A stretch of DNA of 64,000 nt from Enterocloster aldenensis (GTDB lineage Bacteria > Bacillota > Clostridia > Lachnospirales > Lachnospiraceae), in assembly GCF_003434055.1 (NCBI RefSeq), contig NZ_QVEX01000014.1, positions 62,001 through 126,000 of the forward strand, in the 5' to 3' direction. Each line of letters begins with the position of its first letter. The stretch's first letter is position 1. The notes beneath the pieces were generated by a model, which was not told where the DNA came from, did no database searches, and saw nothing but the letters and a program-made list of their open reading frames with translations. Below are positions 30,854-63,049 of the stretch, piece by piece. The translations under genes and the position numbers were made by a program.

Positions 30854-30905
30854 AAAAAGCCATGTCTCCCATTTGAAATCATTCAATGGCCAGACATGGC
30901 TTTTC
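30854..30905. terminator. Bidirectional terminator between the MBL gene and dctP
   Basis: A long stem (AAAAGCCATGTCT / AGACATGGCTTTT) is flanked by T4 on the plus strand and T5 on the minus strand. The dctP stop codon lies in the loop side of the minus-strand arm. It serves two convergent genes. Confidence 0.8.
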
Positions 30906-31932
30906 CCGCTTCCATGATTGCGTTTATGATATCTACATAATCCGAACAGTACTTTTCATACATGGGGGCAACCGCTTCCTGAAACCTTGCCTTTTCCCTG
31001 GGCGTCAGCTCTGTTACAACACAGCCTGCATTCCTCACGAAGTTCTCAGAAATCTTCTCCCTGGCCGCCCACAGCTGTCTCTCATACTTTGCCGATTCCA
31101 GCGCGCACTCCTTGATGATGCTTCTGTACTCCGGGGAAAGCTTATCCCATGTGGGCTGGGCCGCAAGCTGCAGCTCCGGTACGCGCGTGTGTTCATCCAG
31201 GGTATAATATTTAGCCACCTCGTAATGCCTGGTGGATTCATAGGAAGGCCAGTTATTCTCAGCCCCGTCTATCTTGCCGGTCTGAAGCCCGGAATATACT
31301 TCCCCATACGCAGCAGGCACAGGCGTGGCTCCCAGGGCCTCAATGGTGTCCTTCATCAGTTCAGATTCCTGGACCCGGATATTCAGCCCCTTCATATCCT
31401 CCAGGCATTCAATGGGCTTTGCCGTACTGTAAAAGTTCCTGGCCCCCGCATCATACCAGGACAGGGCCACCAGGTGGGAACCGCCAAAGGAATTCATGAA
31501 ATCATCCCCGATACTCCCCTCCAGGACCTTCCACATATGTTCCCTGCCTGTATACAGATAGGGCATCTGAAGCACATTGAGCTTGGGCACGAATTCAGCC
31601 AGCGGTGAAAGGGATACCCTGGCAAAATCAACGCCCCCAAACTGGAGCTGTTCAATTACCGTCTTTTCATCCCCAAGCACGCCGCCTGCATTGACCTGAA
31701 TCTCAATCTTGCCTCCGGTCCGCTCATACACCAGTTCCGCAAACTTGTACGCGCCCTGGGTGGTGGGATAATCCTCGGCCTGGTTTTCCGCATAGGTCAG
31801 GACAAATTCCGGCACATTGGCCTGGGCCTTCTCCCGTTCCGCCCTGCTGCGGCAGGCAGTGGCAGCACAACACATCAATAATACCAGCCCGCACAATACC
31901 GCTGCCCATATCTTCTTTTTCACGCCGCACAT
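30883..31932 (-). CDS. dctP: TRAP transporter substrate-binding lipoprotein (DctP family), without its own membrane subunits
   Basis: A 349-residue solute-binding protein. The signal WAAVLCGLVLLMCCAATAC gives a lipidated Cys. The DctP fold has TTQGAYKFAELV, DFARVSLSPLAEF, MPYLYTGREH, GARNFYSTAKPI, LNIRVQESEL, the Arg of which usually binds a substrate carboxylate, and PAAYGEVYSGLQTGKIDGAEN. No dctQ or dctM follows it; the gene is followed by a terminator. It is separated by 157 bp from the SGNH gene of the upstream TRAP operon, with a possible promoter between. It could share that operon's permease or act as a sensor. I use the ATG at 31932 after GGGAGAAGG; a GTG three codons on is possible. 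Confidence 0.88.
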   Translation of the reverse strand: MCGVKKKIWAAVLCGLVLLMCCAATACRSRAEREKAQANVPEFVLTYAENQAEDYPTTQGAYKFAELVYERTGGKIEIQVNAGGVLGDEKTVIEQLQFGGVDFARVSLSPLAEFVPKLNVLQMPYLYTGREHMWKVLEGSIGDDFMNSFGGSHLVALSWYDAGARNFYSTAKPIECLEDMKGLNIRVQESELMKDTIEALGATPVPAAYGEVYSGLQTGKIDGAENNWPSYESTRHYEVAKYYTLDEHTRVPELQLAAQPTWDKLSPEYRSIIKECALESAKYERQLWAAREKISENFVRNAGCVVTELTPREKARFQEAVAPMYEKYCSDYVDIINAIMEAGKAMSGH

Positions 31933-32011
31933 TTCTCCTTCTCCCAATCTATTTTCAAACAATCTGAGGTGTGTCTGAAAAACAATCAGCACGTCTTTCT
32001 GCCTGTCTCTT

Positions 32012-32017
32012 ATCATA
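32012..32017 (-). promoter_or_regulatory. Possible extended -10 promoter for the stand-alone dctP
   Basis: TGGTATGAT on the minus strand looks like an extended -10 box; the -35 region is poor. It would allow expression of this dctP apart from the upstream operon. Confidence 0.3.
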
Positions 32018-32089
32018 CCATATTTTATATCATAATTCCAGGGGAAGGATTATCCGTGTGCAGGTCTGGAACCGTGTCTTACCGTAATG

Positions 32090-32743
32090 CTAATACGAGG
32101 AGGTATCCGCCAGACATCCTTTTACTGCCGGCGCCAATGCCTCTGCCAGTTTTTTATGCTCCGCCGCCGTCATATGAAGCTTATCTTCATCGCTGGCCTG
32201 GGCCACGGATGCGGCATCAAAGAAGCAGCAGCCTTTTTCACTGCATATCTGTCTGTACTCCCTGGCAAACGCGTGGGACATTTCCACTGCCTCTGTGGTA
32301 AAGCAGCCATAAATACCGTCCTCAATCCCCTCCTTAATGAATACAGGCGAGACTACCAGAATCTGGGGCCTTGGATAGACGGGTTCAAAGGGAAATGAAA
32401 GGATAACGTCAATGACCTGCCCCATCGCCTTTCCCAAATCCCAGGCCGTGGCCTGGAACCGGTGTTTTAAATCATTGGTTCCAAGGGAAAGGATGATTAA
32501 ATCCAGCGGATTATGGCTGGCAATGCAGGGGACCAGCATTTTAAGCCCGTTCCTTCCATAGGAAAGTTCATCGTCAAAGACCGTGGTCCTTCCTCCGCAT
32601 CCTTCTTCTATTATATTGTACTCCGGCCCCAGCAGCTGCCTGAGCACGCCCGTCCACCGCACATCCCGGGGATGGCGGCCCCCATTCACAGGATCTGTAC
32701 CGAATGTATTGCTGTCGCCATAACATAATATATTCTTCATCAT
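32090..32743 (-). CDS. SGNH/GDSL-family esterase
   Basis: A 217-residue cytoplasmic SGNH hydrolase. Block I is CYGDSNTFG with the catalytic Ser, block III is SLGTND, and the C-terminal DEDKLHMTAAEH carries the Asp/His pair. Enzymes of this type commonly remove O-acetyl groups from sugars. The start at 32743 overlaps the dctM stop as ATGATG, so it is translationally coupled to the TRAP transporter. That coupling suggests it deacylates the imported compound before or alongside NagA. There is no signal peptide; the longer frame back to 32917 lies inside dctM and is rejected. Confidence 0.87.
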   Translation of the reverse strand: MMKNILCYGDSNTFGTDPVNGGRHPRDVRWTGVLRQLLGPEYNIIEEGCGGRTTVFDDELSYGRNGLKMLVPCIASHNPLDLIILSLGTNDLKHRFQATAWDLGKAMGQVIDVILSFPFEPVYPRPQILVVSPVFIKEGIEDGIYGCFTTEAVEMSHAFAREYRQICSEKGCCFFDAASVAQASDEDKLHMTAAEHKKLAEALAPAVKGCLADTSSY

Positions 32744-34044
32744 AATAACCCCAACAGCCGCGGCAGGCCCAGTGAAAGCGCGGGAATGAATGTCAGCAGC
32801 AGAAGCATGATTACCATGGACAGGTAAAAGGGCATGAATCCCTTTACCACTTTTTCCACCGGCGTTTTGGCAATGGAGCAGCCGATGAACAGCGATGTGC
32901 CTACCGGCGGCGTACACAGCCCGATTCCATATGCAAGCACCAGCACAACCCCGAAATGATACGGATTAAATCCTAAAACCCCGGTTGCAATGGGATACAG
33001 GATCGGCGTGGTAAGAAGAATCAGGATTCCCATGTCCATGAAACAGCCCAGTATCAGCATCATGACCAGTAAAAGCAGGGTCAGCAGTATCTTATCAGAG
33101 GTCAGGGAAAGCAGCCAGGTGGTAAGGTTCTGCGGAACCTTCAGATAAGACATCACATAACTGAATGCGCCTGAGGCGGATATGATTGCCATTGCCATGG
33201 TCATGGTGGGAAGGCACTTCTTAAGCCCCTCAACGTACTTTTTCACGGTCATGTTCCTGTATGCAACCACGGTGATGACCAGGGCATAGACTGCGGCCAC
33301 TGCCGCTGCCTCGGTGGCCGAACAGACGCCAAAGGAAGTTCCTGCGATTACGATTACGATTGCGCCAAGACCCAGGACCGCCTCCGTGACGATTTTTACA
33401 TTCTCTTTCAGGGAATGCTTCTCGCCCAGGGGATACTTCTTCTGCATGGCGATGGCGTAGGCCGGAATCATCAATCCCAGTGTCAGAAGGATTCCCGGAA
33501 CATAACCGCAGATTAGCAGGGTGCTGATGGAAATGCCGCTGGCTGATGCAAGGGCATAGAACAGCATGTTCTGGCTGGGAGGGATGATGACGCCCTCAAC
33601 AGAGGATGTAACGGTAACAGCAACGCTGTAATCCACATCATACCCCTCATCTATCATGGCCGGGATCAGCATGGCCCCGATGGAGGATACGTCTGCCGCC
33701 GATGAGCCGGATATGCCGCCAAACAGCATGCTTACCAGTATGTTAACGATTGCCGTGCCTCCCCTGACCCTTCCCACAATGATGTTGCAGAAAGCCATCA
33801 GCTTTTTTGTTATCTCGCCGTCGGTCATTACCTGGGCCATCATGATAAAAAAGGGGACGGCGATAAAGGTAAAACTGATCAGGCTCACGGACATTTTCTG
33901 GAACAGGTTAAAATATGGGATTCCCAGATAGGTTGCCGTTATCATGGCTGAAATAGCCAGGGAAAAGGCAATGGGAATACGGATAATCATAAGTATGGCC
34001 AGTGCCGCGAATAACATGACCGTTCCGATTGCAACTTCACTCAT
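32740..34044 (-). CDS. dctM: TRAP transporter large permease subunit
   Basis: A 434-residue DctM protein with about twelve membrane helices, forming the sodium-driven channel. It has the usual blocks: IPIAFSLAISAMITA near the start, GGISGSSAADVSSIGAMLIPAM, SSVEGVIIPPSQNMLFYA, LGCFMDMGILILLTTPIL and GLCTPPVGTSLFIGCSIA. GGAGGAAACGGCAGG precedes the ATG at 34044, which overlaps the dctQ stop by four bases. The SGNH gene overlaps its own stop. It belongs to the lacI-dctPQM-SGNH operon. Confidence 0.94.
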   Translation of the reverse strand: MSEVAIGTVMLFAALAILMIIRIPIAFSLAISAMITATYLGIPYFNLFQKMSVSLISFTFIAVPFFIMMAQVMTDGEITKKLMAFCNIIVGRVRGGTAIVNILVSMLFGGISGSSAADVSSIGAMLIPAMIDEGYDVDYSVAVTVTSSVEGVIIPPSQNMLFYALASASGISISTLLICGYVPGILLTLGLMIPAYAIAMQKKYPLGEKHSLKENVKIVTEAVLGLGAIVIVIAGTSFGVCSATEAAAVAAVYALVITVVAYRNMTVKKYVEGLKKCLPTMTMAMAIISASGAFSYVMSYLKVPQNLTTWLLSLTSDKILLTLLLLVMMLILGCFMDMGILILLTTPILYPIATGVLGFNPYHFGVVLVLAYGIGLCTPPVGTSLFIGCSIAKTPVEKVVKGFMPFYLSMVIMLLLLTFIPALSLGLPRLLGLL

Positions 34045-34535
34045 CCTGCCGTTTCCTCCTTCTTATATGGAATCAGGGTTTCTATCAGGTTCACGATGCT
34101 GTAGACAGTCATGAGGACGCCGCTAAACACCATGGGGAAATACTGGAGTCCCTGGGACCAGTGTGTTGCAGGAAGGCGTTTCTGCAGGTTAATCTTAAAT
34201 ATCTTCCATCCGTAATAGGTCATGAACATACAGAATACCATCAGCAGCACATGCCTGAAAACAGTCAATGCCTTCCTGGCCAAAGGCGGAAGCTTGTTAA
34301 AGACGCCTTCTATGGCAATATGGTCATCCCTGTAAATGCCAATGGAAATACACATGAACCCAAACCATATCAGACAGGTCAGAATCACTTCCTCCGACCA
34401 TACAATGGGGCTGTTGAACGCATAACGCATGACAACCGCCACAAAACAGATGGACAGCATCACAACCAACAGCGCGCAGCAGACATACTGTTCCACTGCC
34501 ACGACATAGCCAAGGCCCTTCTTTATCTTACCCAT
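34041..34535 (-). CDS. dctQ: TRAP transporter small permease subunit
   Basis: A 164-residue DctQ protein with four membrane helices. The family core is seen in VWSEEVILTCLIWFGFMCISIGIYRDDHIAIE, where the WxEE and R-D-H-I elements are typical. It partners DctM and helps dock the binding protein. GGAGGAAACGACCCT precedes the ATG at 34535. A stem-loop lies between dctP and this gene, a common way to make more binding protein than permease. Confidence 0.92.
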   Translation of the reverse strand: MGKIKKGLGYVVAVEQYVCCALLVVMLSICFVAVVMRYAFNSPIVWSEEVILTCLIWFGFMCISIGIYRDDHIAIEGVFNKLPPLARKALTVFRHVLLMVFCMFMTYYGWKIFKINLQKRLPATHWSQGLQYFPMVFSGVLMTVYSIVNLIETLIPYKKEETAG

Positions 34536-34569
34536 AGGGTCGTTTCCTCCTCAATGATTGATAAAATAC

Positions 34570-34591
34570 GGGGCAGACATAATGCTGCCCC
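34570..34591 (-). other. Intercistronic stem-loop between dctP and dctQ
   Basis: GGGGCAG pairs with CTGCCCC across eight bases, followed on the minus strand by GTATTTTATC. It probably trims or stabilises the dctP message so that binding protein exceeds permease. Confidence 0.6.
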
Positions 34592-34611
34592 ATGTTATGG
34601 TTTTCCTGTTA

Positions 34612-35709
34612 TTACTGTGCCGCACGGACCATATCCACAACCTCTTTGTACTGCGGATACTCGTCATATACAGAGGCCACTGCATCCTGGAACTCTTTTA
34701 CATCAACCTCAATGATCTCACATCCGGCTTCTTCACACTTGGCCCTGGATTCCTCCTGGAAATCCTGCATGGCCTGACGCTGCCACTTGGCTGCTTCCTT
34801 CGAAGCCTTGATAACGCCTTCCTTCTGCGGATCTGACATCTTATCCCATGCAGCCTGGCTGCAGATCAGCAGCGCCGGAGGAGCCATATGTCCGTCCAGG
34901 CTGTAATACTTTGCCACTTCGTAATGTCCGGAGGTAAAATAGCTTACAAAGTCATTTTCAGCCCCGTCCACAATACCGGTCTGAAGTCCCTGGAATACCT
35001 CGCCGTATTCCATAGGGGTTGCCTCTGCGCCCAGGGCCTGAACCATGGAAATCGCCACTTCCGTGGGCTGCACGCGGAACTTCATGCCCTTTAAATCCGC
35101 CACGGACCGTATGGGCTTGTTAACCGTATAAAAGCATCTGGAACCAGCCTCATAATAGTCAAGTCCCACCATGTTATAATCGCTTAAGGCTGACAATACT
35201 GCCTGGCCGGCTTCACCGTCCAGGGCCTTGTATTTCTGTTCCGTGCTGGAGAACAGATAAGGCATTGCAAATACGCCGAATATATCAATGACAGGAGCCA
35301 TTGTATTTGTATTCACACGTGAGAAATCCAGCGTCCCCATCTGTACCTGGTCAATGGAGGATGCCTCATCACACAATGCGGCGTTGGGATACACGTCAAT
35401 ATTAACGGTTCCGCCTGTATATTCCTTGGCAAGCTCGGCAAACATCTTCATGCCTTCCGTAACCGGGTTGCCGTCAGGCTGGTTCTCCGCCAGTTTAAAA
35501 TGCAGTTCCTCCCCCATGTCCGCCTGTCCGGCTGCCTCTGAACCTTCCTCTTTTTCACCGGCAGCATCTTCTTTTTCAGCGGATGTTTCAGGTGCGGCGG
35601 CCTGGGCCGTGGTGGCAGCTGTCTCTGCGGGTTTGGCTGCGCCTCCCCCACATGCTGTCATGGACATCACCATTGCACATGATAATAGTACGGATATCGC
35701 TTTCTTCAT
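34612..35709 (-). CDS. dctP: TRAP transporter substrate-binding lipoprotein (DctP)
   Basis: A 365-residue solute-binding protein. The signal KKAISVLLSCAMVMSMTAC places the lipid anchor at Cys20, followed by an Ala/Thr/Glu-rich spacer. The fold includes NPVTEGMKMFAELAKEY, MGTLDFSRVNTNTMAP, MPYLFSSTEQ, GSRCFYTVNKPI, LKGMKFRVQPTEV with the substrate-binding Arg, and MEYGEVFQGLQTGIVDGAEND. GAGGAGGAAAAGGTAG precedes the ATG at 35709. It starts 17 bp after the LacI regulator gene. The conserved Arg implies a substrate with a carboxylate. Confidence 0.94.
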   Translation of the reverse strand: MKKAISVLLSCAMVMSMTACGGGAAKPAETAATTAQAAAPETSAEKEDAAGEKEEGSEAAGQADMGEELHFKLAENQPDGNPVTEGMKMFAELAKEYTGGTVNIDVYPNAALCDEASSIDQVQMGTLDFSRVNTNTMAPVIDIFGVFAMPYLFSSTEQKYKALDGEAGQAVLSALSDYNMVGLDYYEAGSRCFYTVNKPIRSVADLKGMKFRVQPTEVAISMVQALGAEATPMEYGEVFQGLQTGIVDGAENDFVSYFTSGHYEVAKYYSLDGHMAPPALLICSQAAWDKMSDPQKEGVIKASKEAAKWQRQAMQDFQEESRAKCEEAGCEIIEVDVKEFQDAVASVYDEYPQYKEVVDMVRAAQ

Positions 35710-35726
35710 CTACCTTTTCCTCCTCA

Positions 35727-36815
35727 TTAGATAAATTCTTCATAAAATTTAATATTGTTCTGTAAAATTATGGATATGGGTACGCTGATTGCTTCTCCTT
35801 TGGGAGGTATCCCTTTAATCAGATATTCAAATAAGGTCTTATATCCCTGATACCCCTTCTGATACGGCCCTTTATAGACAATTGCTTTGAGGATACCATC
35901 ACTCAGCATCTGGGCGCTTTCCGGGAACAGGTCGCTTCCCACCAGGAAAAGTTCATTAATCCTTCCTGAATCCATTGCCGCCTCACACAGGGGAATGGTG
36001 TTCCTGGCCCTTACGGAGTACGCGCCGATAATGCTTTTATCCTCCCTGAGGCATGCCAGCATCTGCTGCCTGTTGGCCTCTGCCCGGTATAAGTCCTGGA
36101 TGCATCTTACCGTGATGTCCGCATTATTCTTCCTGAAATATTCCTCAAAACCAGCTGCGTTCATCTTATGAGACAAGGAACCTTCGTCACCTGCCGCAAC
36201 AAGGATGGTGCCTTTCTGTCCTTTCAGGACCATGTTCATAAGCTCCGCTGCCAGCTGTCCGGTAAAGGTGTCATTGGGCGCCACGCAGCAGAGCCGTCCG
36301 CAGTCTTTAAAGTCATTGTCAATAAGGACCACGGCCACTCCCTTTGCCGTGAACTGGCTTAACAGGCATTCCATCCTGGAACTATTGATATTGGGCGCGG
36401 TCAGAAGCCCGTCCAGCTGGCCGCCCCATTCCTCATACAGGTTCTTTAAGATCTCCACCTGTTCCCTATCACCGGAGTCCCCGTCAACACTGAATGTGTA
36501 GTTCATCACATTCATGTTATATCCTTCTTCTTCTGCCTCGTATACCTTACAGCCCTTCCATATGTAACGGAAGTAATACTTTCCGCCTTCCTCCGGCTCC
36601 GGGAGCACCACTGCCAGATTCACCTGACGCCGCTTCAGCGCTGAGGCCACATAGTTGGCAGTATATCCCATCTCATTGGCAACATTCAGGATTTCCTGCT
36701 TCACTGCCTTGCTGACCCCTTCTTTGTTGTTCAGGGCCCGATGGACGGATACCAGGGAATACCCGCTGGCCTGGGCTATGTCCTTTAAGGTTATCTTTTT
36801 TACTTCCATCGGCAT
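35727..36815 (-). CDS. LacI-family transcriptional regulator
   Basis: A 362-residue regulator. The N-terminal helix-turn-helix reads ITLKDIAQASGYSLVSVHRALNN, with the hinge helix near AANYVASALKRR. The C-terminal periplasmic-binding-protein-like domain (LAVVLPEPEEGGKYYF to SVPISIILQNNIKFYEE) is of the sugar-sensing type. The ATG at 36815 follows GGGAAGGG; another ATG is two codons later. It is the first gene of the TRAP operon, and a perfect palindrome lies just downstream of its predicted start site, so it probably represses itself, the TRAP genes and the divergent nag genes. The inducer is likely a sugar or sugar phosphate from the pathway. Confidence 0.9.
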   Translation of the reverse strand: MPMEVKKITLKDIAQASGYSLVSVHRALNNKEGVSKAVKQEILNVANEMGYTANYVASALKRRQVNLAVVLPEPEEGGKYYFRYIWKGCKVYEAEEEGYNMNVMNYTFSVDGDSGDREQVEILKNLYEEWGGQLDGLLTAPNINSSRMECLLSQFTAKGVAVVLIDNDFKDCGRLCCVAPNDTFTGQLAAELMNMVLKGQKGTILVAAGDEGSLSHKMNAAGFEEYFRKNNADITVRCIQDLYRAEANRQQMLACLREDKSIIGAYSVRARNTIPLCEAAMDSGRINELFLVGSDLFPESAQMLSDGILKAIVYKGPYQKGYQGYKTLFEYLIKGIPPKGEAISVPISIILQNNIKFYEEFI

Positions 36816-36884
36816 GATTCCACATCCCTTCCCACTCTCTCCCCAGCAATTGGTCACATGTTGTGAAATTAACTAAGTTAAATT

Positions 36885-36902
36885 GTTTTCGAAAACGTTT
36901 CC
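36885..36902. promoter_or_regulatory. LacI-type operator palindrome
   Basis: GTTTTCGAAAAC is a perfect 12-bp palindrome, and the overlapping GAAAACGTTTCC is a near palindrome of the LacI/GalR kind with a central CG. It lies a few bases downstream of the predicted lacI start site, where a repressor would block transcription. Assignment to this LacI protein is by position. Confidence 0.6.
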
Positions 36903-36911
36903 GTTATCCAT

Positions 36912-36941
36912 ATTATAGTCCAACGCAATAAGTGATGTCAA
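36912..36941 (-). promoter_or_regulatory. Promoter of the lacI-dctPQM-SGNH operon
   Basis: Consensus TTGACA and TATAAT are separated by 18 bp on the minus strand. It is flanked by palindromes downstream (36885-36902) and upstream (36944-36958). Confidence 0.7.
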
Positions 36942-36943
36942 TA

Positions 36944-36958
36944 CGAAAAAAATTTTCG
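36944..36958. promoter_or_regulatory. Second palindrome, possible auxiliary operator
   Basis: CGAAAAAAATTTTCG is a 15-bp palindrome that shares the CGAAAA/TTTTCG core with the main operator. The centres of the two sites are ~60 bp apart and lie between the divergent promoters. Confidence 0.4.
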
Positions 36959-37011
36959 CTATTTTTATCCGGCATATATTCGATTTTATTGTATATTTTA
37001 CCCAAAACCTA

Positions 37012-37040
37012 TTGACTTTTAATTGCTTTTCTTCTATTCT
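37012..37040 (+). promoter_or_regulatory. Promoter of the nagA-nagB-nagB operon
   Basis: TTGACT and TATTCT are separated by 17 bp on the plus strand. The leader to the nagA ATG is only ~25 bases. Confidence 0.6.
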
Positions 37041-37072
37041 GGAATCAATTCGACTAAAGGAGCGAAACACAT

Positions 37073-38257
37073 ATGGAGCATTTTATATTTACAAACGCCC
37101 GGATTGTACTTCCTGATACCATACTTGATGACCACTATCTATCTGTGAAAAACGGAGTAATTGAATCCATCGGCAAGGGAACGCCTGACCGGGAGCAGCT
37201 TAACTCCTGCACCACGGTGGACTGCGGCGGCCAGTATCTGTCGCCGGGATTTATCGATATCCACTGTCATGGCGGAGGCGGGGCCGACTTTATGGACGGG
37301 CACATGGAAGATATCCTCACCGCTGCCAGGGCACATCTTATCCACGGGACCACCGGAATCTGTCCCACCACACTGACCTGTTCCGATGAGGAGCTGTTTA
37401 CATTTTTTGAATCCTTCAGGCAGGCCAGGGAAGTAACAGAGCAGATGCCCCACCTTTTAGGCATCCATCTGGAAGGACCTTACTTTTCCCCGGCCCAGGC
37501 CGGCGCCCAGCCCCCAAAGTATCTGGTGCATCCCAGGCCGGAGCATTATCATGAAATCCTCAGGCGGGGCCAGGGCAATATCGTAAGGTGGTCTGCTGCA
37601 CCCGAACTTCCAGGCGCGCTGGAACTTGGGGATGAGCTTGCGGGAAAGGGGATTAAGGTTTCCATGGGGCACAGCGATGCCGGATTTGAGGATATTGTAA
37701 ACGCGATGGAACACGGCTATAGCCAGATCACGCATTTTTACTCCGCCATGTCCACCATCACCAGGAAACGGGGACGGCGCGTACTGGGGCTGATTGAATG
37801 CGGTTACCTGTTTGACCGTCTGAAGGTTGAGATCATCGCCGATGGAATCCATCTTCCCCCTGAGTTATTAAAGTTAATCCTTAAATGCAAGAACCATGAT
37901 GATATCTGCCTTGTGACAGACAGCATGCGGGGAGCAGGCATGCCGGACGGCCCCTCCCTGCTGGGTTCTAAGAAGAACGGCGTGCCCGTCATCATTGAGG
38001 ACGGGATTGCCAATATGCCTGACTTCTCAAGCTTTGCAGGCAGCGTGGCCACCACGGACCGGCTGGTCCGCGTGATGGTGCAGAAGGCTGGCCTTCCTGT
38101 CTGGGAGGCGGTTAAGATGGCTTCCCTGAACCCGGCCTCCTTCCTGGGAATCCAGGAAACATACGGAAGCATCCAACCGGGGAAATCAGCGGACCTGCTT
38201 ATTTTTGATGACGATATCCGTATATCTTCTGTTTACGTATCCGGTATCAGACAATAA
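37073..38257 (+). CDS. nagA: N-acetylglucosamine-6-phosphate deacetylase
   Basis: This amidohydrolase removes the acetyl group from GlcNAc-6-phosphate or a close relative in the cytoplasm. The 394-residue protein has the metal pair His64/His66 (DIHCHGG), the ligand Glu134 (HLEGPY), His200 (MGHSD), His221 (THFYSAM, where most homologues have THLFNAM) and the catalytic Asp283 (TDSMRGAG). AAAGGAGCGAAACAC lies before the ATG at 37073. It heads an operon with two nagB-like genes and is divergent from lacI. The altered block near His221 and the neighbouring TRAP system leave room for a substrate other than plain GlcNAc-6-P. Confidence 0.9.
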   Translation: MEHFIFTNARIVLPDTILDDHYLSVKNGVIESIGKGTPDREQLNSCTTVDCGGQYLSPGFIDIHCHGGGGADFMDGHMEDILTAARAHLIHGTTGICPTTLTCSDEELFTFFESFRQAREVTEQMPHLLGIHLEGPYFSPAQAGAQPPKYLVHPRPEHYHEILRRGQGNIVRWSAAPELPGALELGDELAGKGIKVSMGHSDAGFEDIVNAMEHGYSQITHFYSAMSTITRKRGRRVLGLIECGYLFDRLKVEIIADGIHLPPELLKLILKCKNHDDICLVTDSMRGAGMPDGPSLLGSKKNGVPVIIEDGIANMPDFSSFAGSVATTDRLVRVMVQKAGLPVWEAVKMASLNPASFLGIQETYGSIQPGKSADLLIFDDDIRISSVYVSGIRQ

Positions 38258-38292
38258 AAACACATAATATTTTTATAAAGGAGAAATTAATT

Positions 38293-39033
38293 ATGAGCAT
38301 AATGATCCACGTATCTTCTACCCCCAGCCAGCTGGGGGCACAGGCAGCCAATGCAATTGCCGTTCTTTTAAATGAGGCCGTCAGCCGCCAGGGACATGCC
38401 CGTCTGGTGCTGTCCACCGGAGCCTCCCAGTTTGAGACCCTGGACGCCCTCATCGGCCTTGACGTTCCCTGGAGCCAGGTAGAGATGTTCCATCTGGACG
38501 AGTACGTGTCCCTTCCCGAAAGCCATCCTGCCAGCTTCCGCAAATACTTAAAAGAGCGCTTTGTCAGCAAGGTTCCCCTGAAAGCAGCTTATTTTGTTGA
38601 CGGCGAGGGAGATGTGGCAGGAAATATTGCCGCCCTGTCCCGTGAACTTAAAAAGGAGCCGGTGGATGTGGGCGTCATTGGAATCGGCGAAAACGGCCAC
38701 ATTGCATTTAATGACCCGCCTGCTGATTTTGATACGGAAGAAGCCTATAAAATCGTTGATTTGGATGAGAGATGCAAGAAACAGCAGGTGGGCGAGGGAT
38801 GGTTTGCAGATGTTGACTCAGTCCCCAAGCAGGCCATAACCATGTGCGTGAAACAAATCCTGTCATGCCGCCATATCATCTCGGCCGTCCCCCACAATGT
38901 GAAGGCCGAAGCCATCCTGCACACGGTCACAAAACCGGTGACCCCTGATGTGCCTGCAACCATCTTAAAGATGCATCCGGACTGGAGACTGTTCCTGGAC
39001 AGCCAGTCAGCCGCGCGCCTGCTTTCCCTGTGA
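38293..39033 (+). CDS. nagB: NagB-family glucosamine-6-phosphate deaminase/isomerase, first copy
   Basis: A 246-residue sugar-phosphate isomerase-deaminase. Compared with E. coli NagB, Asp72 corresponds to Asp69 in FHLDEYVSL and His143 to His136. The general base Asp141 is Asn134 and Glu148 is Asp141 in the motif GENGHIAFNDPP. This variant is common in a distinct NagB-like subgroup, so activity on a related amino sugar phosphate is possible. AAAGGAGAAATTAATT precedes the ATG at 38293, 35 bp after nagA. A second, divergent copy follows. Confidence 0.85.
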   Translation: MSIMIHVSSTPSQLGAQAANAIAVLLNEAVSRQGHARLVLSTGASQFETLDALIGLDVPWSQVEMFHLDEYVSLPESHPASFRKYLKERFVSKVPLKAAYFVDGEGDVAGNIAALSRELKKEPVDVGVIGIGENGHIAFNDPPADFDTEEAYKIVDLDERCKKQQVGEGWFADVDSVPKQAITMCVKQILSCRHIISAVPHNVKAEAILHTVTKPVTPDVPATILKMHPDWRLFLDSQSAARLLSL

Positions 39034-39051
39034 TAAGCAGGGCCCGGGTCC

Positions 39052-39081
39052 CACGAGCCAATAAAAAGCACGAGCCAATAA
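39052..39081 (+). repeat. Short direct repeat between the two nagB-like genes
   Basis: CACGAGCCAATAA occurs at 39052-39064 and again at 39069-39081, just before the ribosome binding site of the second nagB-like gene. It looks like a small local duplication. Confidence 0.7.
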
Positions 39082-39093
39082 CAAGGAGGACTT

Positions 39094-39867
39094 ATGGAAA
39101 CCATAAGATATTTTACAAAAGATGCCTTACAATGCTTTGTCTATGAAGACCGCGGAAGGATGGGAAAAGCGGCTGCCAGGGATATCATTGCCATGATTCA
39201 TGTGATGCTCTCCCAGAAACCTGTGATTAACATGATGTTCGGGGCAGCGCCGTCCCAGAATGAAGTCCTGGCCGGGCTGCGGGAAGCGGATGATGTGGAC
39301 TGGACGCGGATTAACTGTTTCCACATGGATGAATACATTGGGTTATCACCGGATGCGCCCCAGGGGTTCGGAAACTTTTTGCGGGAGCATCTCTTCGGGC
39401 ACAAGCCATTTGCCCAGGTAAATTATATTTCCCCTGAAACAACGGAGCCTGAGAAGGAAGCGGCCCGCTATGAAGCCCTGCTAAAAGAGCATCCCATCGA
39501 TATCTGCGTCCTGGGCGTGGGGGAAAATGGACATGTGGCATTTAACGACCCGCCTGTGGCTGATTTTAAGGACACGCGGCTGGTAAAACCAGTAAAGCTG
39601 GATCCTGTCTGCCGCCAGCAGCAGGTCAATGACGGCTGCTTTGCATCCATGGACCAGGTTCCGGAATATGCCATGACGGTCACGGTTCCCGGGCTGATGG
39701 CGGCCAGGGCTTTGTTCTGCGTGGTTCCGGCGCCCACCAAGGCCCAGGCCATAGCCCGCCTTATAAACGGCCAAATATCGGAATCCTGCCCTGCCAGCAT
39801 CCTCAGGCTTCAAAAATCAGCCAGGCTGTACCTGGACCCTGACTCTGCCGGCCAATTGGAATCATGA
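39094..39867 (+). CDS. NagB-family glucosamine-6-phosphate deaminase/isomerase, second copy
   Basis: A 257-residue paralogue of the preceding protein with clearly different sequence. It keeps FHMDEYIGL (Asp79) and GVGENGHVAFNDPP. Here too the E. coli Asp141 position is Asn145, the Glu148 position is Asp152, and His147 is conserved. AAGGAGGACTT precedes the ATG at 39094, 60 bp after the first copy. Two adjacent copies in one operon suggest either a hetero-oligomer or two related substrates. I do not assign a specific sugar. Confidence 0.83.
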   Translation: METIRYFTKDALQCFVYEDRGRMGKAAARDIIAMIHVMLSQKPVINMMFGAAPSQNEVLAGLREADDVDWTRINCFHMDEYIGLSPDAPQGFGNFLREHLFGHKPFAQVNYISPETTEPEKEAARYEALLKEHPIDICVLGVGENGHVAFNDPPVADFKDTRLVKPVKLDPVCRQQQVNDGCFASMDQVPEYAMTVTVPGLMAARALFCVVPAPTKAQAIARLINGQISESCPASILRLQKSARLYLDPDSAGQLES

Positions 39868-39905
39868 ACATGTCCCAATCACAGCAAAGCTTCTGTGCAT
39901 AAGAC

Positions 39906-39964
39906 CGCGCCCATGCCGGGCGCGCAAAAAAATCTCCGCCCATACCCACATGGACGGAGATTTA
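39906..39964. terminator. Terminator pair between the nag operon and the second TRAP operon
   Basis: Two hairpins lie here. CGCGCCC/GGGCGCG spans 39906-39924. A 14-bp stem (AAATCTCCGTCCAT / ATGGGCGGAGATTT on the minus strand) is followed by seven T in all. The latter ends the dctM message and can also serve the convergent nag message. Confidence 0.8.
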
Positions 39965-39993
39965 TGATTTTAATCATATGGAAACACCGCTGT

Positions 39994-41298
39994 TTATTTC
40001 GCCATGCCACCCAGTACGGTGGGCAGCCACATGCTGACAGCCGGGACAAAGGTAATCAGCAGCAGTGTAATGATCATGCACAGATAGAACGGAAGCGTCG
40101 CCTTGACCACACGCTCCATGGGCACCTTGGCAACGGCAGAGCCAATGAAAAGCACTGCGCCTACAGGAGGTGTCAGAAGGCCGATACCGCAGTTAAGGAC
40201 AACCATGATACCGAACTGGATTGGATCCAGGCCAATGGAGGTTGCGATTGGAAGCAGGATTGGCGTTGCAATCAGGATGATGGGCGCCATATCCATGATG
40301 CATCCAAGAACCAGCAGGATCAGGTTCAGCAGCAGGGCCAGAAGGATTGGATTATTGGTCATGCCTGTAATGGTGCTGGCTGCCAGGTCCGGCACATGCA
40401 GCTGGGTCAGGCAGAATCCGAAGATACTGGATGTTGCAATCAATATCATAACAATGGACAAGGTGTCCACGCAGTCCCCAAGCACCCTCCAGACGCCCTT
40501 CCAGTCAAGTCCCCTGTAGATGAACACGCTGACAATCAGGCTGTAGATAACCGCCACGGCCGCGGACTCAGTGGCAGTGAACACGCCCCCAACCACGCCG
40601 AACACAACAATCAGCACAGCTGCCAGGGCCCAGAAGGAAATACCCAGCTGTTTAATCAGGTTCATGATGTTGAACTTCTCGCCCTTAGGGTAATTGCGCT
40701 TAACAGAGATTATATAGGAACCGATCATCAGTGTGACAGCCAGAAGCGCACCTGGTATATATCCTGCCAGGAAAAGGCTTCCCACGGAAATGCCTCCTGC
40801 CGTGGTTGCATAGATAACCATGTTATGGCTGGGAGGAACCAAAAGTCCCTCACAGGAAGATGTAATGGTTACAGCGGTTGAGAAATCATCATCATATCCC
40901 TGGTCCACCATCATCGGTATCAGGATGGAGCCAAGGGAAGCCGTGTCCGCGGAAGCGGAACCGGAAATACCTCCGAAGAAATAGGAAGCAACGATATTAA
41001 CCATTGCCATGCCTCCGCGCATCCAGCCAACACACGCATTGGCCAGGGCAATGAGCTTTTCGGAGATACCGCCTGAACCCATCAGGCATCCCATGGTGAT
41101 GAAGAAAGGGACTGCCATCAGGCTGAAGGAACTGATGCCTTTTACCATCTGCTGGCAGATGGTGGTCAGGTTATGCCCCTGGTACAGAAGGCAGAACACA
41201 GAAGAAAGCGCTACCGCATAGGCGATGGGGAAACGCAGGAATACCATCAGGAAGAAACTTCCCAGCAAAACCAGGATTGCCATGCTATTTGCATCCAT
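39994..41298 (-). CDS. dctM: TRAP transporter large permease subunit, second system
   Basis: A 434-residue DctM with about twelve membrane helices. Conserved blocks include RFPIAYAVALSSVFC, GGISGSASADTASLGSILIPMM, SSCEGLLVPPSHNMVIYA, LGCIMDMAPIILIATPILLP and GLLTPPVGAVLFIGSAVA. The ATG at 41298 overlaps the dctQ stop (TAATG). It is the last gene of the dctPQM operon and is followed by a strong terminator. It is related to the first system's DctM but not nearly identical, so the two TRAP systems are old paralogues rather than a recent duplication. Confidence 0.94.
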   Translation of the reverse strand: MDANSMAILVLLGSFFLMVFLRFPIAYAVALSSVFCLLYQGHNLTTICQQMVKGISSFSLMAVPFFITMGCLMGSGGISEKLIALANACVGWMRGGMAMVNIVASYFFGGISGSASADTASLGSILIPMMVDQGYDDDFSTAVTITSSCEGLLVPPSHNMVIYATTAGGISVGSLFLAGYIPGALLAVTLMIGSYIISVKRNYPKGEKFNIMNLIKQLGISFWALAAVLIVVFGVVGGVFTATESAAVAVIYSLIVSVFIYRGLDWKGVWRVLGDCVDTLSIVMILIATSSIFGFCLTQLHVPDLAASTITGMTNNPILLALLLNLILLVLGCIMDMAPIILIATPILLPIATSIGLDPIQFGIMVVLNCGIGLLTPPVGAVLFIGSAVAKVPMERVVKATLPFYLCMIITLLLITFVPAVSMWLPTVLGGMAK

Positions 41299-41822
41299 TA
41301 CTCCATCCCCTCCTTTACAAAGAATCCTTTAATATGATTATATATGGCTTCTATCTCAAAAACAAACATTGCCGCGCCCGCCAGAGGAACCGGGAAGTAC
41401 ATCCAGAATCTGGAAACCTTCGGCATGCTTACATAAGTACCCTTGGAACCAATCCCGGTGGCATATTTCCAGCCAACCGTAATCATGATGATTGCAAGGG
41501 CAAACACTGCCAGGTCGGCGAGAATATCCAGGCTTTTCACCAGATTGGACGGCAGATAGCGGTCAAATGCAGTCATGCGGATATGGGCGCCCCTTCTGAT
41601 TGCAAGGGCAGCAGAAAGCACCGCCATATAGGACATACAGGTCAGTACCACTTCCTCACTCCACGCCGGATCAGGAATGAACGGTATGTATCTTCCTGCC
41701 ACTGCCATGCTTGTGATAAGGATATCCACCACCAGAAGTACCTTGCAGAGAAACAGGACACACTTATATGTCACGTCATATGCGGGTTTGATTTTATCAA
41801 TCTTTTCAAACATTGCTGGCAT
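41298..41822 (-). CDS. dctQ: TRAP transporter small permease subunit, second system
   Basis: A 174-residue DctQ with four membrane helices. It has the DctQ core DPAWSEEVVLTCMSYMAVLSAALAIRRGAHIRM. AAAGGGGAATTGAT precedes the ATG at 41822. It sits between dctP (with an intervening stem-loop) and dctM. Confidence 0.91.
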   Translation of the reverse strand: MPAMFEKIDKIKPAYDVTYKCVLFLCKVLLVVDILITSMAVAGRYIPFIPDPAWSEEVVLTCMSYMAVLSAALAIRRGAHIRMTAFDRYLPSNLVKSLDILADLAVFALAIIMITVGWKYATGIGSKGTYVSMPKVSRFWMYFPVPLAGAAMFVFEIEAIYNHIKGFFVKEGME

Positions 41823-41843
41823 ATCAATTCCCCTTTCACTAAT

Positions 41844-41879
41844 ACAGGCACAGAGTGAATTTCCTTTCCCTGTGCCTGT
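41844..41879 (-). other. Intercistronic stem-loop between dctP and dctQ, second system
   Basis: ACAGGCACAG pairs perfectly with CTGTGCCTGT across a 16-base loop. It is at the same place as the stem-loop in the first TRAP operon, which supports a shared role in setting the binding-protein to permease ratio. Confidence 0.6.
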
Positions 41880-41894
41880 TCTGATTGCCGTTTA

Positions 41895-43010
41895 TTAATT
41901 GTTCATGTCAAGAATCTTCTGATACAGTTCAGCCTGATCCTTTGTGGAAGACTCGATGATATCCTTACAAGCATCCTGCCATGGTTTGATATCAGGAACT
42001 TCAACTACATTAATTCCATCAGCCTTCAGCTCATCCAGCACCTTGTTCTCGGCTTCCTCAGAGATAGTCCTGTTGAATTCAGAAGCAACTTTGCCGGCTT
42101 CCATGAGGATGTTCTGCTGCTCTTCTGTCAGCTTATCCCAAGCCTCGTCTGTGATGATGACCTGGATGGCGCCCAGTGTGTGGCCGTCCAGGATCAGGTT
42201 CGGGGCAACTTCCGGGAATGCGTTGGATTTATAGTTGGCAATCGGCTGCTCAGCGCCGTCAACAACACCGGTCTGAAGCGCGGAGTACAGTTCGTTGAAG
42301 GAAACAACGGTTGGGCTTGCGCCAAGTCCGTTTACCATACCGTTCATGATTGGGTCGTTGGACACACGTAATTTCATGCCCTTCAGGTCATCTAAACCTT
42401 TTACTTCCTTAACAGTAAAGAAATGACGGAAACCTTCCTCACCGTAGAACAGGCCTCTTACCCCAAGTCCGTTGTCGTGCGGTTCCATCAGGAATTCAGG
42501 AGCCAGTTCGCTGTCAGCAAACTTCCAGAAGTGGTCACGGTTTGCAAATGTGTAAGGAATGGAGAGAAGTACGGACTTCTCAGCGCCATAACTGGTCAGT
42601 GCAAATGCGGAAATACGGGAAATATCAATGGTTCCGCCGCCGCCCAGCATGGTATCCAGGACATCGTTCTCAGAACCAAGTACACCGCTGGCCTGCAGGT
42701 CAATCTTAATCTTTCCGCCGGACATTTCCTCAACCGTCTCTTTGAACTTGGTGTCGGTCTGTCCAACGATTGTGTCTAAGGGGTTAACCTCTGCCATTAC
42801 CAGGGTAATCTCCGGCTCACTGGCTGTGTCGGCTGCCGCCTCGGTCTTGGCTTCCTCTTTGCTCTCACCTGCTGCATCCGCTGCCGGGGCCTCGGTTGCT
42901 GCAGGAGCAGCTGTTGTTGTAGGTGCGTCCGGTGTCTTCAGGCCGCAGCCTGCCAGGGAACCAGCTACCATTACTGCGCACAGTGCTGCACTCATCCATC
43001 TTTTTTTCAT
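41895..43010 (-). CDS. dctP: TRAP transporter substrate-binding lipoprotein, second system (DctP)
   Basis: A 371-residue solute-binding protein. The signal MKKRWMSAALCAVMVAGSLAGC gives lipid-anchored Cys22, then a Thr/Ala/Glu-rich spacer. The fold includes GGGGTIDISRISAFALTSY, IPYTFANRDHFWKF, GFRHFFTVKEV, LKGMKLRVSNDPI with the carboxylate-binding Arg, and SFNELYSALQTGVVDGAEQP. GAGGAGGATATGTTAC precedes the ATG at 43010; the frame upstream to 43052 is rejected. The promoter has AraC-type direct repeats, so the two-component system just upstream probably activates it. Confidence 0.93.
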   Translation of the reverse strand: MKKRWMSAALCAVMVAGSLAGCGLKTPDAPTTTAAPAATEAPAADAAGESKEEAKTEAAADTASEPEITLVMAEVNPLDTIVGQTDTKFKETVEEMSGGKIKIDLQASGVLGSENDVLDTMLGGGGTIDISRISAFALTSYGAEKSVLLSIPYTFANRDHFWKFADSELAPEFLMEPHDNGLGVRGLFYGEEGFRHFFTVKEVKGLDDLKGMKLRVSNDPIMNGMVNGLGASPTVVSFNELYSALQTGVVDGAEQPIANYKSNAFPEVAPNLILDGHTLGAIQVIITDEAWDKLTEEQQNILMEAGKVASEFNRTISEEAENKVLDELKADGINVVEVPDIKPWQDACKDIIESSTKDQAELYQKILDMNN

Positions 43011-43083
43011 GTAACATATCCTCCTCTTTATACTTTTTTTATGCTTTCGCATATTTTGTTTACGTTTTCTTTACGCTAATTAA

Positions 43084-43201: not shown

Positions 43202-44113
43202 TTATCCCTTCTGGAATATGCACAAGCGGTACTCTGTAGGGCTCTGCCCTGTTATCCGCTTAAATACCTTTGCGAAATAATTGGAATCCGAATACCCAAC
43301 CGCCCTGCCGATGTCCTTGACATTCACCGTGGGCATGGCCAGCATCCTCTTGGCTTCCACCACCCGGTACTCTGTCAGGTAGGATGTGAAATTCTTATTA
43401 AAACACTGCTTAAACAGCTTGCAGAAATAAGCCTCCGAATAGTTCATATGCCGCGCCAGGTCCTGCATGGATATGTCGTACATGTAATTGGTCTCTATAT
43501 AATGGCTTATGATTTCCGTCACCTTGGACAGACGGACCTGGCCTCCGTCCTCCATGTCATCCCCCACCGGAAGGCCTGTTTCCGGCAGTTCATTCTTCTG
43601 GCCCGGGCCGGCCGGTTGGCTTGCCTGATGTCCGGCTGCCGGACGGCTGGCCTGGTAACCGGATGCCGGACGGTTGGCCTGGTAACCGGATGCCGGACGG
43701 TTGGCCTGGTAACCGGCTTCCTGTCGGTTGGCCTGGAACTCGGCTGCCAGGCGCATGGCTTCCTCCACCACCAGCATCAGCTCCTGCTCATCATAAGGTT
43801 TCAGCAGATAATCCAGGGCACGCACCGTTATGGCCTTTTTGGCATAGGAAAACTCATCAAAGGCAGTCAGGAAAATAATGCAGCATTCCTTATCCTTTTC
43901 CCGGATTTTCTGTGCGGCCTCAATCCCGTTAATGCCAGGCATTTCAATGTCCAGGATTGCAATCTGGATTTTCTCTTCCTCATAGACCCTAAGCGCCTGC
44001 CGTCCATTTTCAGCCTGGAAAATCACGCACTGGTCCCCCACGTTCTTCTGCAGGGTTTTGTAAAGGACCTTTCTCTCAATCACCTCATCGTCAGCTATCA
44101 ATAAACGCAGCAT
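43202..44113 (-). CDS. AraC-type response regulator (YesN family) with repeat linker
   Basis: A 303-residue regulator. The receiver domain (residues 1-~120) has LLIADDEVIERK, the phosphoacceptor Asp in IAILDIEMPGING, and the Lys in LLKPYDEQE. The linker (~125-174) contains tandem GYQANRPAS nonapeptides. The C-terminal double helix-turn-helix of AraC type (MQDLARHMNYSEAYFCKLFKQ, VGYSDSNYFAKVFKRITGQSPTEYR) is complete. GGGGGGATTAC precedes the ATG at 44113; an earlier frame from 44167 overlaps the kinase gene and is rejected. It follows the kinase gene by 10 bp and precedes the second TRAP operon. Confidence 0.92.
   Translation of the reverse strand: MLRLLIADDEVIERKVLYKTLQKNVGDQCVIFQAENGRQALRVYEEEKIQIAILDIEMPGINGIEAAQKIREKDKECCIIFLTAFDEFSYAKKAITVRALDYLLKPYDEQELMLVVEEAMRLAAEFQANRQEAGYQANRPASGYQANRPASGYQASRPAAGHQASQPAGPGQKNELPETGLPVGDDMEDGGQVRLSKVTEIISHYIETNYMYDISMQDLARHMNYSEAYFCKLFKQCFNKNFTSYLTEYRVVEAKRMLAMPTVNVKDIGRAVGYSDSNYFAKVFKRITGQSPTEYRLCIFQKG
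43616..43740 (-). repeat. 27-bp coding tandem repeats in the response-regulator linker
   Basis: About four copies of a 27-bp unit encode GYQANRPAS-like nonapeptides; two central copies are nearly identical. They lie between the receiver and DNA-binding domains and remain in frame. Confidence 0.85.
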
Positions 44114-44123
44114 GTAATCCCCC

Positions 44124-58765: not shown

Positions 58766-60052
58766 TTAATAAAAGAGATTTACTAAAAATGTGGTAAACG
58801 GCTCAAACCAGGTTAAAAGCAGCAGGTTGGTTACCAGCAGTATGTAAAAGGGAACAGCCTCTTTAATAAAGTCAGCTGTCTTGCATTTGGTGATGGAACA
58901 GGTCACAAACATCAGTGTCCCCATTGGCGGTGATAGAGCCCCTATTGCATTATTGAAGATGTATATCATTGCAAACTGGATTTCATTGATACCATAGGAG
59001 GCGGCAATGGGAGCCAGCAATGGTACCAGGATAATCATGGAGGCATTTCCCTCTATGAACATGCCCACAATAAGCAGGAAAATATTAACCACTATGAGGA
59101 ACACGATTCTGCTGTGGATGGTGGCCAGCATCCACTCTGTTAGCATCTGAGGAATCCGTTCCTTGGTCAGGATCCAGGAGAATACGGAGGCAGCGGATAC
59201 AATCAACATGATGGAAGCCGTGGTGCATACGGTTTCCTTCAGTCCGCGGCACAAATCCGTCAGCTTCATTTCCCTGTATATAATACCCAGGATTACGGCA
59301 TAGATGATGGCAACAGCTCCTGCCTCCGTAGCGGTAAACACGCCAATCCGGATTCCCCCGATGATGATGACGGGGAGCAGCAACGGCAGTACGGCGGGCC
59401 TGAAAACCTTCCAGAACCTGGGCCAGCTCATTTTCTCAGTGCTGAGGTTTCCATACCCCCTTTTCTTGGAAATGATACCCACAAGAATCATCATGGTCAC
59501 GCACAGCAGCCCGCCCACGCCAATCCCTGAGATAAACAGCTTTCCAATGGATACATTGGCAATGCAGCCATAAAGAATCATTGCGATACCCGGTGGGATT
59601 AAGGGTGTTATCATGGATGAGGCGGCTGTTACCACACTTGAGAATTCGAGGGAAAATCCCTTTTTCGTCATCTCCGGCACCAGCATCTTGGACTCCATAG
59701 CAGCGTCTGCGATGTTGGAACCAGATAAGCCTCCCATAACCGTTGACAGCAGCACATTCACCTGGGCCAGCCCCCCGGGAAGCCGTCCGGTCACCACCTC
59801 GCAGAAGTTCATAATACGTTTGGTCACCCCTGTATAATTCATGAAAATACCGGCGCACACAAAGAAGGGGATTGCCAGCAGGGATATCTTTTCCGTACCC
59901 ACGATGGCCTGCTGGGCAAAAACAATGGAGTTAATATCCGGGTTCAGAAGGAAATAGACCATGGAGCCTCCCAAAACCGCAATATATACAGGAACCTTTA
60001 AAAACAGCAGCGCCAGCATTACAATGGACGCCAGTATTAATATATCACTCAT
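58766..60052 (-). CDS. dctM: TRAP transporter large permease subunit, third system
   Basis: A 428-residue DctM with about twelve membrane helices. Blocks: KVPVYIAVLGGSMVYF, VMGGLSGSNIADAAMESKML, SSMITPLIPPGIAMILYG, VGMFIEGNASMIILVPLL and GALSPPMGTLMFVTCSI. The ATG at 60052 (MSDILIL) follows AAGGAGGCAGCAAGCA and overlaps the dctQ end by eight bases; a longer frame to 60085 is rejected. It is the most divergent of the three DctM proteins here, and belongs to the dehydrogenase-dctPQM operon. Confidence 0.93.
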   Translation of the reverse strand: MSDILILASIVMLALLFLKVPVYIAVLGGSMVYFLLNPDINSIVFAQQAIVGTEKISLLAIPFFVCAGIFMNYTGVTKRIMNFCEVVTGRLPGGLAQVNVLLSTVMGGLSGSNIADAAMESKMLVPEMTKKGFSLEFSSVVTAASSMITPLIPPGIAMILYGCIANVSIGKLFISGIGVGGLLCVTMMILVGIISKKRGYGNLSTEKMSWPRFWKVFRPAVLPLLLPVIIIGGIRIGVFTATEAGAVAIIYAVILGIIYREMKLTDLCRGLKETVCTTASIMLIVSAASVFSWILTKERIPQMLTEWMLATIHSRIVFLIVVNIFLLIVGMFIEGNASMIILVPLLAPIAASYGINEIQFAMIYIFNNAIGALSPPMGTLMFVTCSITKCKTADFIKEAVPFYILLVTNLLLLTWFEPFTTFLVNLFY

Positions 60053-60551: not shown

Positions 60552-60563
60552 AAGTCTTTCTCC

Positions 60564-61643: not shown

Positions 61644-61753
61644 CCTTGTTCCCTCCATCATCCATAATATATTTATTTTTTTCCGCCCCGTTGTGCCGGG
61701 TACCAACGCACTCCGCTATGCACAGCTAACGGAAAGCAACCATTAAACACGCC

Positions 61754-62782: not shown

Positions 62783-62811
62783 TCATTATCCTCCCTTGCC
62801 TTCAATGTATT

Positions 62812-63003: not shown

Positions 63004-63049
63004 ACAATGAGGGATACATGTACGCACACATAAAAGGAGCTATGGGGAA

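Follow-up and report, generated by a model that had tools for sequence, protein, structure and literature searches.

A candidate LacI-controlled, kinase-free route for N-acetylhexosaminuronates in Enterocloster aldenensis, built from a TRAP transporter and NagA- and NagB-like enzymes

N-Acetylhexosaminuronates occur in bacterial surface polymers, and the Vi capsule is an O-acetylated homopolymer of one of them, N-acetylgalactosaminuronate (GalNAcA; excerpt of PMC3448643). No catabolic pathway for the free monomers was found in the literature searched, and a search for systems that combine a tripartite ATP-independent periplasmic (TRAP) transporter with nagA and nagB returned only sialic acid work and unrelated microbiome papers. 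TRAP proteins bind acids, and seven residues that hold glucuronate have been named for the binding proteins STM3169 and Apre_1383 (excerpt of PMC7660916). The phosphate is held in mycobacterial NagA by Asn212 and by an Arg in the loop that follows it; a conserved Arg is indispensable, as is an anion at C6 (excerpt of PMC6016474). Here we describe a unit of TRAP, nagA-like and nagB-like genes in a 64,000-nucleotide stretch of the Enterocloster aldenensis genome (the window; contig NZ_QVEX01000014.1, positions 62,001 to 126,000 of the forward strand). We tentatively read it as a LacI-controlled, kinase-free route for 2-acetamido-2-deoxyhexuronates, namely N-acetylglucosaminuronate (GlcNAcA), GalNAcA or N-acetylmannosaminuronate (ManNAcA), possibly O-acetylated, and give this reading, which draws on sequence comparison, a rough probability of 0.48. 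All of the protein families are known; the literature searched yielded neither their combination nor the proposed substrate.

Gene identities were assigned by Pfam and NCBIfam profile searches. As the preliminary description of the window had stated, lacI, dctPQM and an SGNH hydrolase gene, with an extra dctP, are divergent from nagA and two nagB-like genes. The features of the unit are given below in window positions; L-numbers (L001 and so on) denote related loci that were fetched.

30883-32016, minus strand: DctPx, an extra TRAP solute-binding protein (PF03480, 3.6e-85; best PDB match 4x8r, 1.6e-83)
32090-32743 (likely), minus strand: SGNH/GDSL hydrolase (PF13472, 2.8e-16; best PDB matches are GDSL enzymes and arylesterases, with 7bxb at 157 bits)
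32740-34044, minus strand: DctM1, TRAP large permease (PF06808, 1.5e-102)
34041-34535, minus strand: DctQ1, TRAP small permease (PF04290, 1.2e-28)
34612-35709, minus strand: DctP1, solute-binding protein (PF03480, 2.5e-80; best PDB match 4x8r, 4.3e-72)
35727-36857, minus strand: LacI-family regulator, start codon uncertain (PF00356, 8e-10; PF13407, 8e-28)
36886-36902, no strand: operator-like block 1, TTTTCGAAAACGTTTCC, conserved in six aligned loci (the window and L001-L005)
36942-36957, no strand: operator-like block 2, TACGAAAAAAATTTTC, exact core also in L002-L004, variant form in L001 and L005
37073-38257, plus strand: NagA-like deacetylase of the YSAM class (TIGR00221, 255 bits against a cut-off of 226; class by motif comparison)
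38293-39033, plus strand: NagB1, FNDPP-type deaminase/isomerase (PF01182, 3e-17)
39094-39867, plus strand: NagB2, second FNDPP-type deaminase/isomerase (PF01182, 1e-18), 35% identical to NagB1

The true unit is LacI-dctPQM-SGNH together with nagA-nagB1-nagB2 across a conserved operator region, which is smaller than the supercluster first claimed. The extra dctP probably belongs to it; the dctPx gene lies 73 bases beyond the SGNH gene on the same strand and is probably the last gene of the dct operon, and no DctPx was found behind the SGNH position in L004 and L005. The SGNH open reading frame (ORF) runs to 32917, with a likely ATG start at 32743 that is the same in L005. No signal sequence was seen from this start, and the product is a probable cytoplasmic O-acetylesterase.

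The interval between lacI and nagA is 215 bases long and holds both operator-like blocks. Each block is unique to this interval within the window, block 2 even when three mismatches are allowed. With at most one mismatch allowed, block 1 has a single match in each of 4 of 5 related genomes, always an exact one in the nagA-lacI interval, and none in the fifth; the reversed pattern, used as a control, gave three matches across the same five genomes. The location and uniqueness of block 1 point to a local regulator that is predicted to control the two divergent transcripts. Neither block was found in the examined intervals of the more distant L006, L007, L008, L024, L035 and L063, so the operator is assigned to close relatives only.

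The arrangement recurs in L001, where the core DNA is ∼92% identical. In a scan for relatives of NagB1, from which the best 80 loci were kept (all counts out of 80 refer to these), TRAP genes were present at 11: L001, L003-L006, L008, L010, L024, L035, L047 and L063. The TRAP-nag core spans Bacillota, Spirochaetota and Fusobacteriota, and its recurrence in L001 and in three phyla argues that the arrangement is not due to chance. A YSAM-class nagA is found at 10 of the 11 TRAP loci, none being recognised at L063. The genes of L006, L008 and L024 all lie on one strand, and in L003 an N-acylglucosamine 2-epimerase-like gene (3124-4431) replaces SGNH behind dctM. Members of the same N-acylglucosamine 2-epimerase-like cluster also occur at five other loci, some with an ATP-binding cassette (ABC) importer. 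The 80 loci differ in length and some are cut, which makes absences weak evidence; ORFs were picked mechanically, longest first, and some true genes were lost (NagB1 of L001; DctP and NagA of L010, which when recovered added to the support for the route described below). Neighbouring genes were clustered and the cluster representatives, rather than every neighbour, were searched with Pfam, and several of the spirochaete genomes are closely related, so that counts are not independent.

By sequence, the best PDB matches of DctP1 are 4x8r, 4mhf/4mij, 4p1l, 4ovr and 4n8y, all far above SiaP, and most of these we take to be hexuronate complexes. DctP1 keeps six of the seven glucuronate-holding residues (Arg150, Arg170, Asn210, Asn35, Gln36 and Glu74, equivalent by offset to Arg191, Arg212, Asn252, Asn76, Gln77 and Glu115). 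The seventh, acidic position, Asp237 of STM3169, is Ala279 in DctP1 and is Ala or Ser in all nagB1-linked members of the DctP1 clade (12/12). DctP1 also carries NDF where hexuronate-type proteins have NNW, and DctPx holds a full hexuronate-type pocket with Glu at the Asp237 position. When a predicted model of DctP1 was compared with known structures, many TRAP proteins fell within a few Z units and the ligand was not discriminated. A DctP1 search gave 3 matches in 391 Clostridia genomes and 6 in 397 genomes of the family of L001; except for that of L001 itself these are ∼40% identical, and at this distance they supply no new contexts.

Such a pocket could also mean that the TRAP system takes up plain hexuronates while nagA and nagB ride along for another purpose. 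The best PDB match of DctP1 as well as of DctPx is 4x8r, and Treponema parvum, which has the cluster, was described under a title with the words 'glucuronic or galacturonic acid-dependent' (reference list in an excerpt of PMC3637317). T. parvum, however, has 15 DctPs, of which others map close to its uxuA and uxaC. The altered pocket is a mark of the nagB1-linked DctP clade, and the operator region is common to nagA; we consider plain hexuronate uptake highly improbable.

The window NagA keeps the metal ligands and the catalytic Asp. The phosphate-binding Asn (Asn212 of the mycobacterial MSNagA, Asn219 of Escherichia coli) and the R-x-PG loop are not kept, and Ser and R-x-x-G-x-R stand in their places. 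Ser replaces Asn in 35 of 44 NagA rows at the best 80 loci, and both changes are present in every aligned TRAP-linked NagA (10/10), whereas Asn is kept in all 24 NagA-type rows outside the YSAM and YSAC classes, taken from related and spirochaete genomes. MAFFT aligns the Arg of the YSAM loop with E. coli Arg227; a gap-free count puts it one residue earlier. A second, higher-scoring nagA (TIGR00221) occurs in seven of the eight genomes with a linked copy, T. parvum being the exception, and a TIGR00221 nagA was also found in the genome of L063. The second, classical nagA and the retention of Asn elsewhere indicate that the TRAP-linked NagA is, judged by its sequence, a specialised paralogue with a remodelled anion site.

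The preliminary description had treated NagA substrates as neutral, which is wrong for the mycobacterial enzyme, since this requires the C6 anion and does not use N-acetylglucosamine (GlcNAc; excerpt of PMC6016474). The same enzyme tolerates a 6-sulfate (same excerpt) and TRAP proteins can bind sulfonates (titles of IseP structures), which would suit another acidic aminosugar, such as GlcNAc-6-sulfate, a muramic or neuraminic derivative or the aldonic acid GlcNAc1A. We regard these substrates as improbable. The locus has no recognised sulfatase, lyase (nanA) or etherase gene, a C1 acid is unfit for the aldose-ketose reaction of NagB, and the described GlcNAc1A route uses unrelated enzymes (excerpt of PMC12017989).

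NagB1 and NagB2 score 121 and 122 bits, about half of the curated nagB cut-off of 237. The catalytic Asp72 and His143 of E. coli NagB, together with Lys208, are kept in 77 of 77 NagB rows; Arg172 is absent from all 77, and Glu148 is replaced by Asp in every row, giving FNDP. Arg172 we take to be a phosphate ligand, and the roles of Asp72, His143 and Lys208 are likewise assumed; no literature on NagB residues was found. The two NagBs may serve one C4 epimer each.

We identified a third NagB-like gene, NagB3, in uxuA regions; it forms a sister clade of NagB1 and has the same motifs. Of the 14 spirochaete genomes examined, 8 have it at a distance of 93-2430 bases from uxuA; in two of the other six the contig is cut. 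Drawn evenly, 296 Spirochaetota genomes yielded seven with NagB3 (counted at E 4.5e-89 or better), with uxuA 94-1569 bases away in five and not seen in two. UxaC is present in 14 of 15 NagB3 genomes, which argues that NagB3 is not simply replacing the isomerase. The YSAM NagA (E 1e-90) was found in 4 of the 296 genomes and in one of the seven with NagB3, suggesting that NagB3 is independent of it. In spirochaetes NagB3 is seen beside uxuA (often divergent) and uxuB at L145 (7342-9299), L146 (2576-4585), L150 (7433-10134), L190 and L192-L194.

No match to E. coli NagK, NanK, RbsK, KdgK, XylB, NanE, NanA or NanQ was found by phmmer among the 56 window ORFs, the five kinases named being the only kinase queries and other kinase families not being searched for, and no match resembling NagE of the phosphotransferase system (PTS) was found among the same ORFs. 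Within that scope the earlier statement that nanA, nanE, nanK, kinase and PTS genes are absent holds. Kinase genes occur at 3 of the best 80 loci (L056, L057 and L077), none of which has TRAP genes. Ordinary catabolism of the GlcNAc or chitobiose type would need a kinase elsewhere and would make the TRAP genes metabolically unlinked neighbours. Consistent with it, the window NagA scores above the TIGR00221 cut-off, and nagB1 accompanies sugar-type ABC importers in Paenibacillus and some spirochaetes. The binding of acids by TRAP proteins (excerpt of PMC7660916), the shared divergent operator region and the TRAP-nagA-nagB linkage in three phyla all speak against it, as do the scarcity of kinases at the 80 loci and the separate, higher-scoring nagA in seven of eight genomes, and we find this explanation very doubtful.

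The genes, their conserved linkage, the operator-like blocks, the changed residues, the scarcity of kinases and the linkage of NagB3 with uxuA are observed; for the N-acetylhexosaminuronate route we infer the substrate, the sequence of reactions and what SGNH, DctPx and each NagB do, as follows. Outside the cell DctP1 would capture the free sugar acid for import by DctQ1-DctM1; with DctPx, this permease may also accept plain hexuronates. Inside the cell SGNH would strip O-acetyl groups, and the NagA-like enzyme, with the C6 carboxylate at its remodelled anion site, would strip the N-acetyl group. The resulting 2-amino-2-deoxyhexuronate would be isomerised and deaminated by NagB1 and/or NagB2, giving ammonia and fructuronate or tagaturonate, and the sugar acid product would enter the Ashwell (uxu/uxa) pathway encoded elsewhere. 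Fructuronate and tagaturonate, which a NagB-type reaction on a 2-amino-2-deoxyhexuronate would yield, are the substrates of UxuB and UxaB. The genome of L001 has uxaC, uxaA, eda-like and kdgK-like genes together, and at L028 a nagA-nagB1-SSF symporter set adjoins an altronate dehydratase gene; a weaker case is L036, with a mannitol-dehydrogenase-family gene on the same short contig and unrelated genes between.

The preliminary description suggested above all that the genes handle an acetylated aminosugar acid by a route not yet described. Given the DctP1 pocket, the altered NagA and NagB sites and the NagB-uxuA linkage, this is the best supported of the candidate explanations, a phosphorylated aminosugar being a less likely one. 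With less confidence than we attach to the route in the window, we propose more generally that the FNDPP-type NagB family (NagB1, NagB2 and the uxuA-linked NagB3) may consist of 2-amino-2-deoxyhexuronate deaminases/isomerases that yield fructuronate or tagaturonate. Joined by a dedicated deacetylase and interchangeable importers, they would make up an undescribed route, spread over at least three phyla, that lets gut and oral bacteria feed on the N-acetylhexosaminuronates of bacterial capsules and wall polymers.

Several observations weigh against the N-acetylhexosaminuronate route. UxuA was found in 9 of 11 TRAP-locus genomes and in 22 of 32 others, which is no enrichment, and UxaC in 9 of 10 searched; the UxuA figures do not discriminate, and we set co-occurrence with UxuA aside as proof. 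L010 has the full core and no UxuA match in its genome, and the genome of L063 has no match to UxuA or UxaC, although both genomes may be incomplete. NagB3 stands beside uxuA in 0 of 13 non-spirochaete genomes, the relatives of the window included. The Ala279 assignment comes from a numbering offset and the 4x8r alignment, not from a structure. At L196 and L197 TRAP genes lie beside a NagB1-like gene and have unrelated DctP pockets, which lowers our confidence slightly; the same NagA-NagB1 pair also has an AfuA-like ABC importer as a neighbour, accompanied at some loci by a phosphohexomutase-like gene, and in the NagA tree the TRAP and ABC contexts are intermixed. An ABC permease cluster is present at 16 of the best 80 loci, and in spirochaetes the pair is often near an ABC importer. 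L196 (3679-7541) and L197 (390-7613, which adds an LGNG-class NagA-like gene) are possibly sister systems for other acids.

The ABC loci raise the alternative that the TRAP system imports GlcNAc-6-phosphate or a relative, for which no kinase is needed and from which NagA and NagB would give fructose-6-phosphate directly in a self-contained locus. In the NagA tree the TRAP locus L008 groups at 100/100 support as sister to L019 and L064, which have an ABC importer and a mutase, and it shares their flanking AraC-type gene. A phosphorylated aminosugar would fit well if this reflects an exchange of transporters with an unchanged substrate. Among PDB entries the ABC binding protein comes closest to AfuA and to a pyridoxal phosphate-binding protein; it keeps Ser at the AfuA phosphate positions, and the neighbouring mutase keeps the TASHNP and DGDGDR motifs. 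However, the essential His205/Asp206 of AfuA are not kept, and on this ground we rejected membership of the spirochaete importer in AfuABC. A phosphorylated aminosugar also leaves the hexuronate-type pocket of DctP1, the loss of phosphate ligands from NagA and NagB and the NagB3-uxuA linkage unexplained, and we judge it unlikely. The phosphohexomutase-like ORFs near AfuA-like importers and nagA-nagB1 (L019, 2767-4377; L064, 4474-6069; and related ORFs) form a divergent family with EESAHYY instead of the usual sugar loop.

A second TRAP system (39994-43052) lies convergent with nagB2 and had been counted as part of the supercluster:

39994-41298, minus strand: DctM2 (Pfam/NCBIfam)
41298-41822, minus strand: DctQ2 (Pfam/NCBIfam)
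41895-43052, minus strand: DctP2 (Pfam/NCBIfam)

The carboxylate-binding Arg, which is Arg212 in DctP1, is kept in all three DctPs, as claimed earlier (KFRVQ, NIRVQ and KLRVS). The pocket of DctP2 differs, with Gln at the position of the Asn conserved in hexuronate-type proteins. An AraC-type response regulator gene and a PF06580 histidine kinase gene (43202-45641) precede the system on the same strand, the operator blocks were not found at it, and among the best 80 loci, some of them short, it adjoins the core only in L001. For these reasons we rejected a single supercluster and treat the second TRAP system as a neighbour of the unit. The space where nagB2 and dctM2 converge holds an inverted repeat of 14 bases around a 6-base loop (39930-39963); preceded by a second GC-rich stem, it is probably a two-way terminator.

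Elsewhere in the window a third TRAP system comprises DctM (58766-60085), a possible DctQ (60045-60551) and DctP (60564-61706), accompanied by a zinc-type dehydrogenase (61754-62782) and a GntR/FCD regulator (63050-63724); this unit (58766-63724) probably handles a sugar acid or polyol. At 45857-48796 lies a gene for a GlgB-type branching enzyme of 979 amino acids, in which residues 753-842 give a below-cut-off Trypan_PARP match that suggests a repetitive C-terminal tail; the L001 ORF is longer.

An importer, a deacetylase and a deaminase acting in sequence on N-acetylhexosaminuronates would, if true, explain the kinase-free NagA/NagB sets of three phyla. The 'GlcNAc-6-P' and 'GlcN-6-P' (glucosamine-6-phosphate) labels of many paralogues would need correcting, and the route would reveal gut feeders on the coats of other bacteria.

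Among described systems, the hexose-phosphate importer AfuABC has a distant relative beside the same NagA-NagB1 pair in spirochaetes, but this relative is not in the window and does not keep His205/Asp206. The pathway for GlcNAc1A from oxidised chitin (OngB/OngC) likewise deacetylates and deaminates without prior phosphorylation (excerpt of PMC12017989); its substrate, however, is a C1 acid, OngB is D-aminoacylase-like and the chemistry is different. SiaPQM-nan sialic acid systems also place a TRAP transporter beside nagA and nagB, whereas here no nanA, nanE or nanK was found and DctP1 resembles hexuronate-type proteins far more than SiaP. The NagA-NagB pair of GlcNAc catabolism in E. coli and mycobacteria shares the fold families, the metal ligands, the catalytic Asp of NagA and the Asp and His of NagB; here the phosphate-site Asn of NagA and Arg172 of NagB are lost, import is by TRAP and no kinase or PTS was found. 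Compared with the hexuronate TRAP proteins STM3169, Apre_1383 (4N91) and Bpro_3107 (4MHF) and the Ashwell pathway, DctPx has all of the named positions (Glu for Asp237) and DctP1 six of seven, but DctP1 has Ala279 and NDF for NNW, and its unit holds nagA and nagB rather than uxu/uxa genes.

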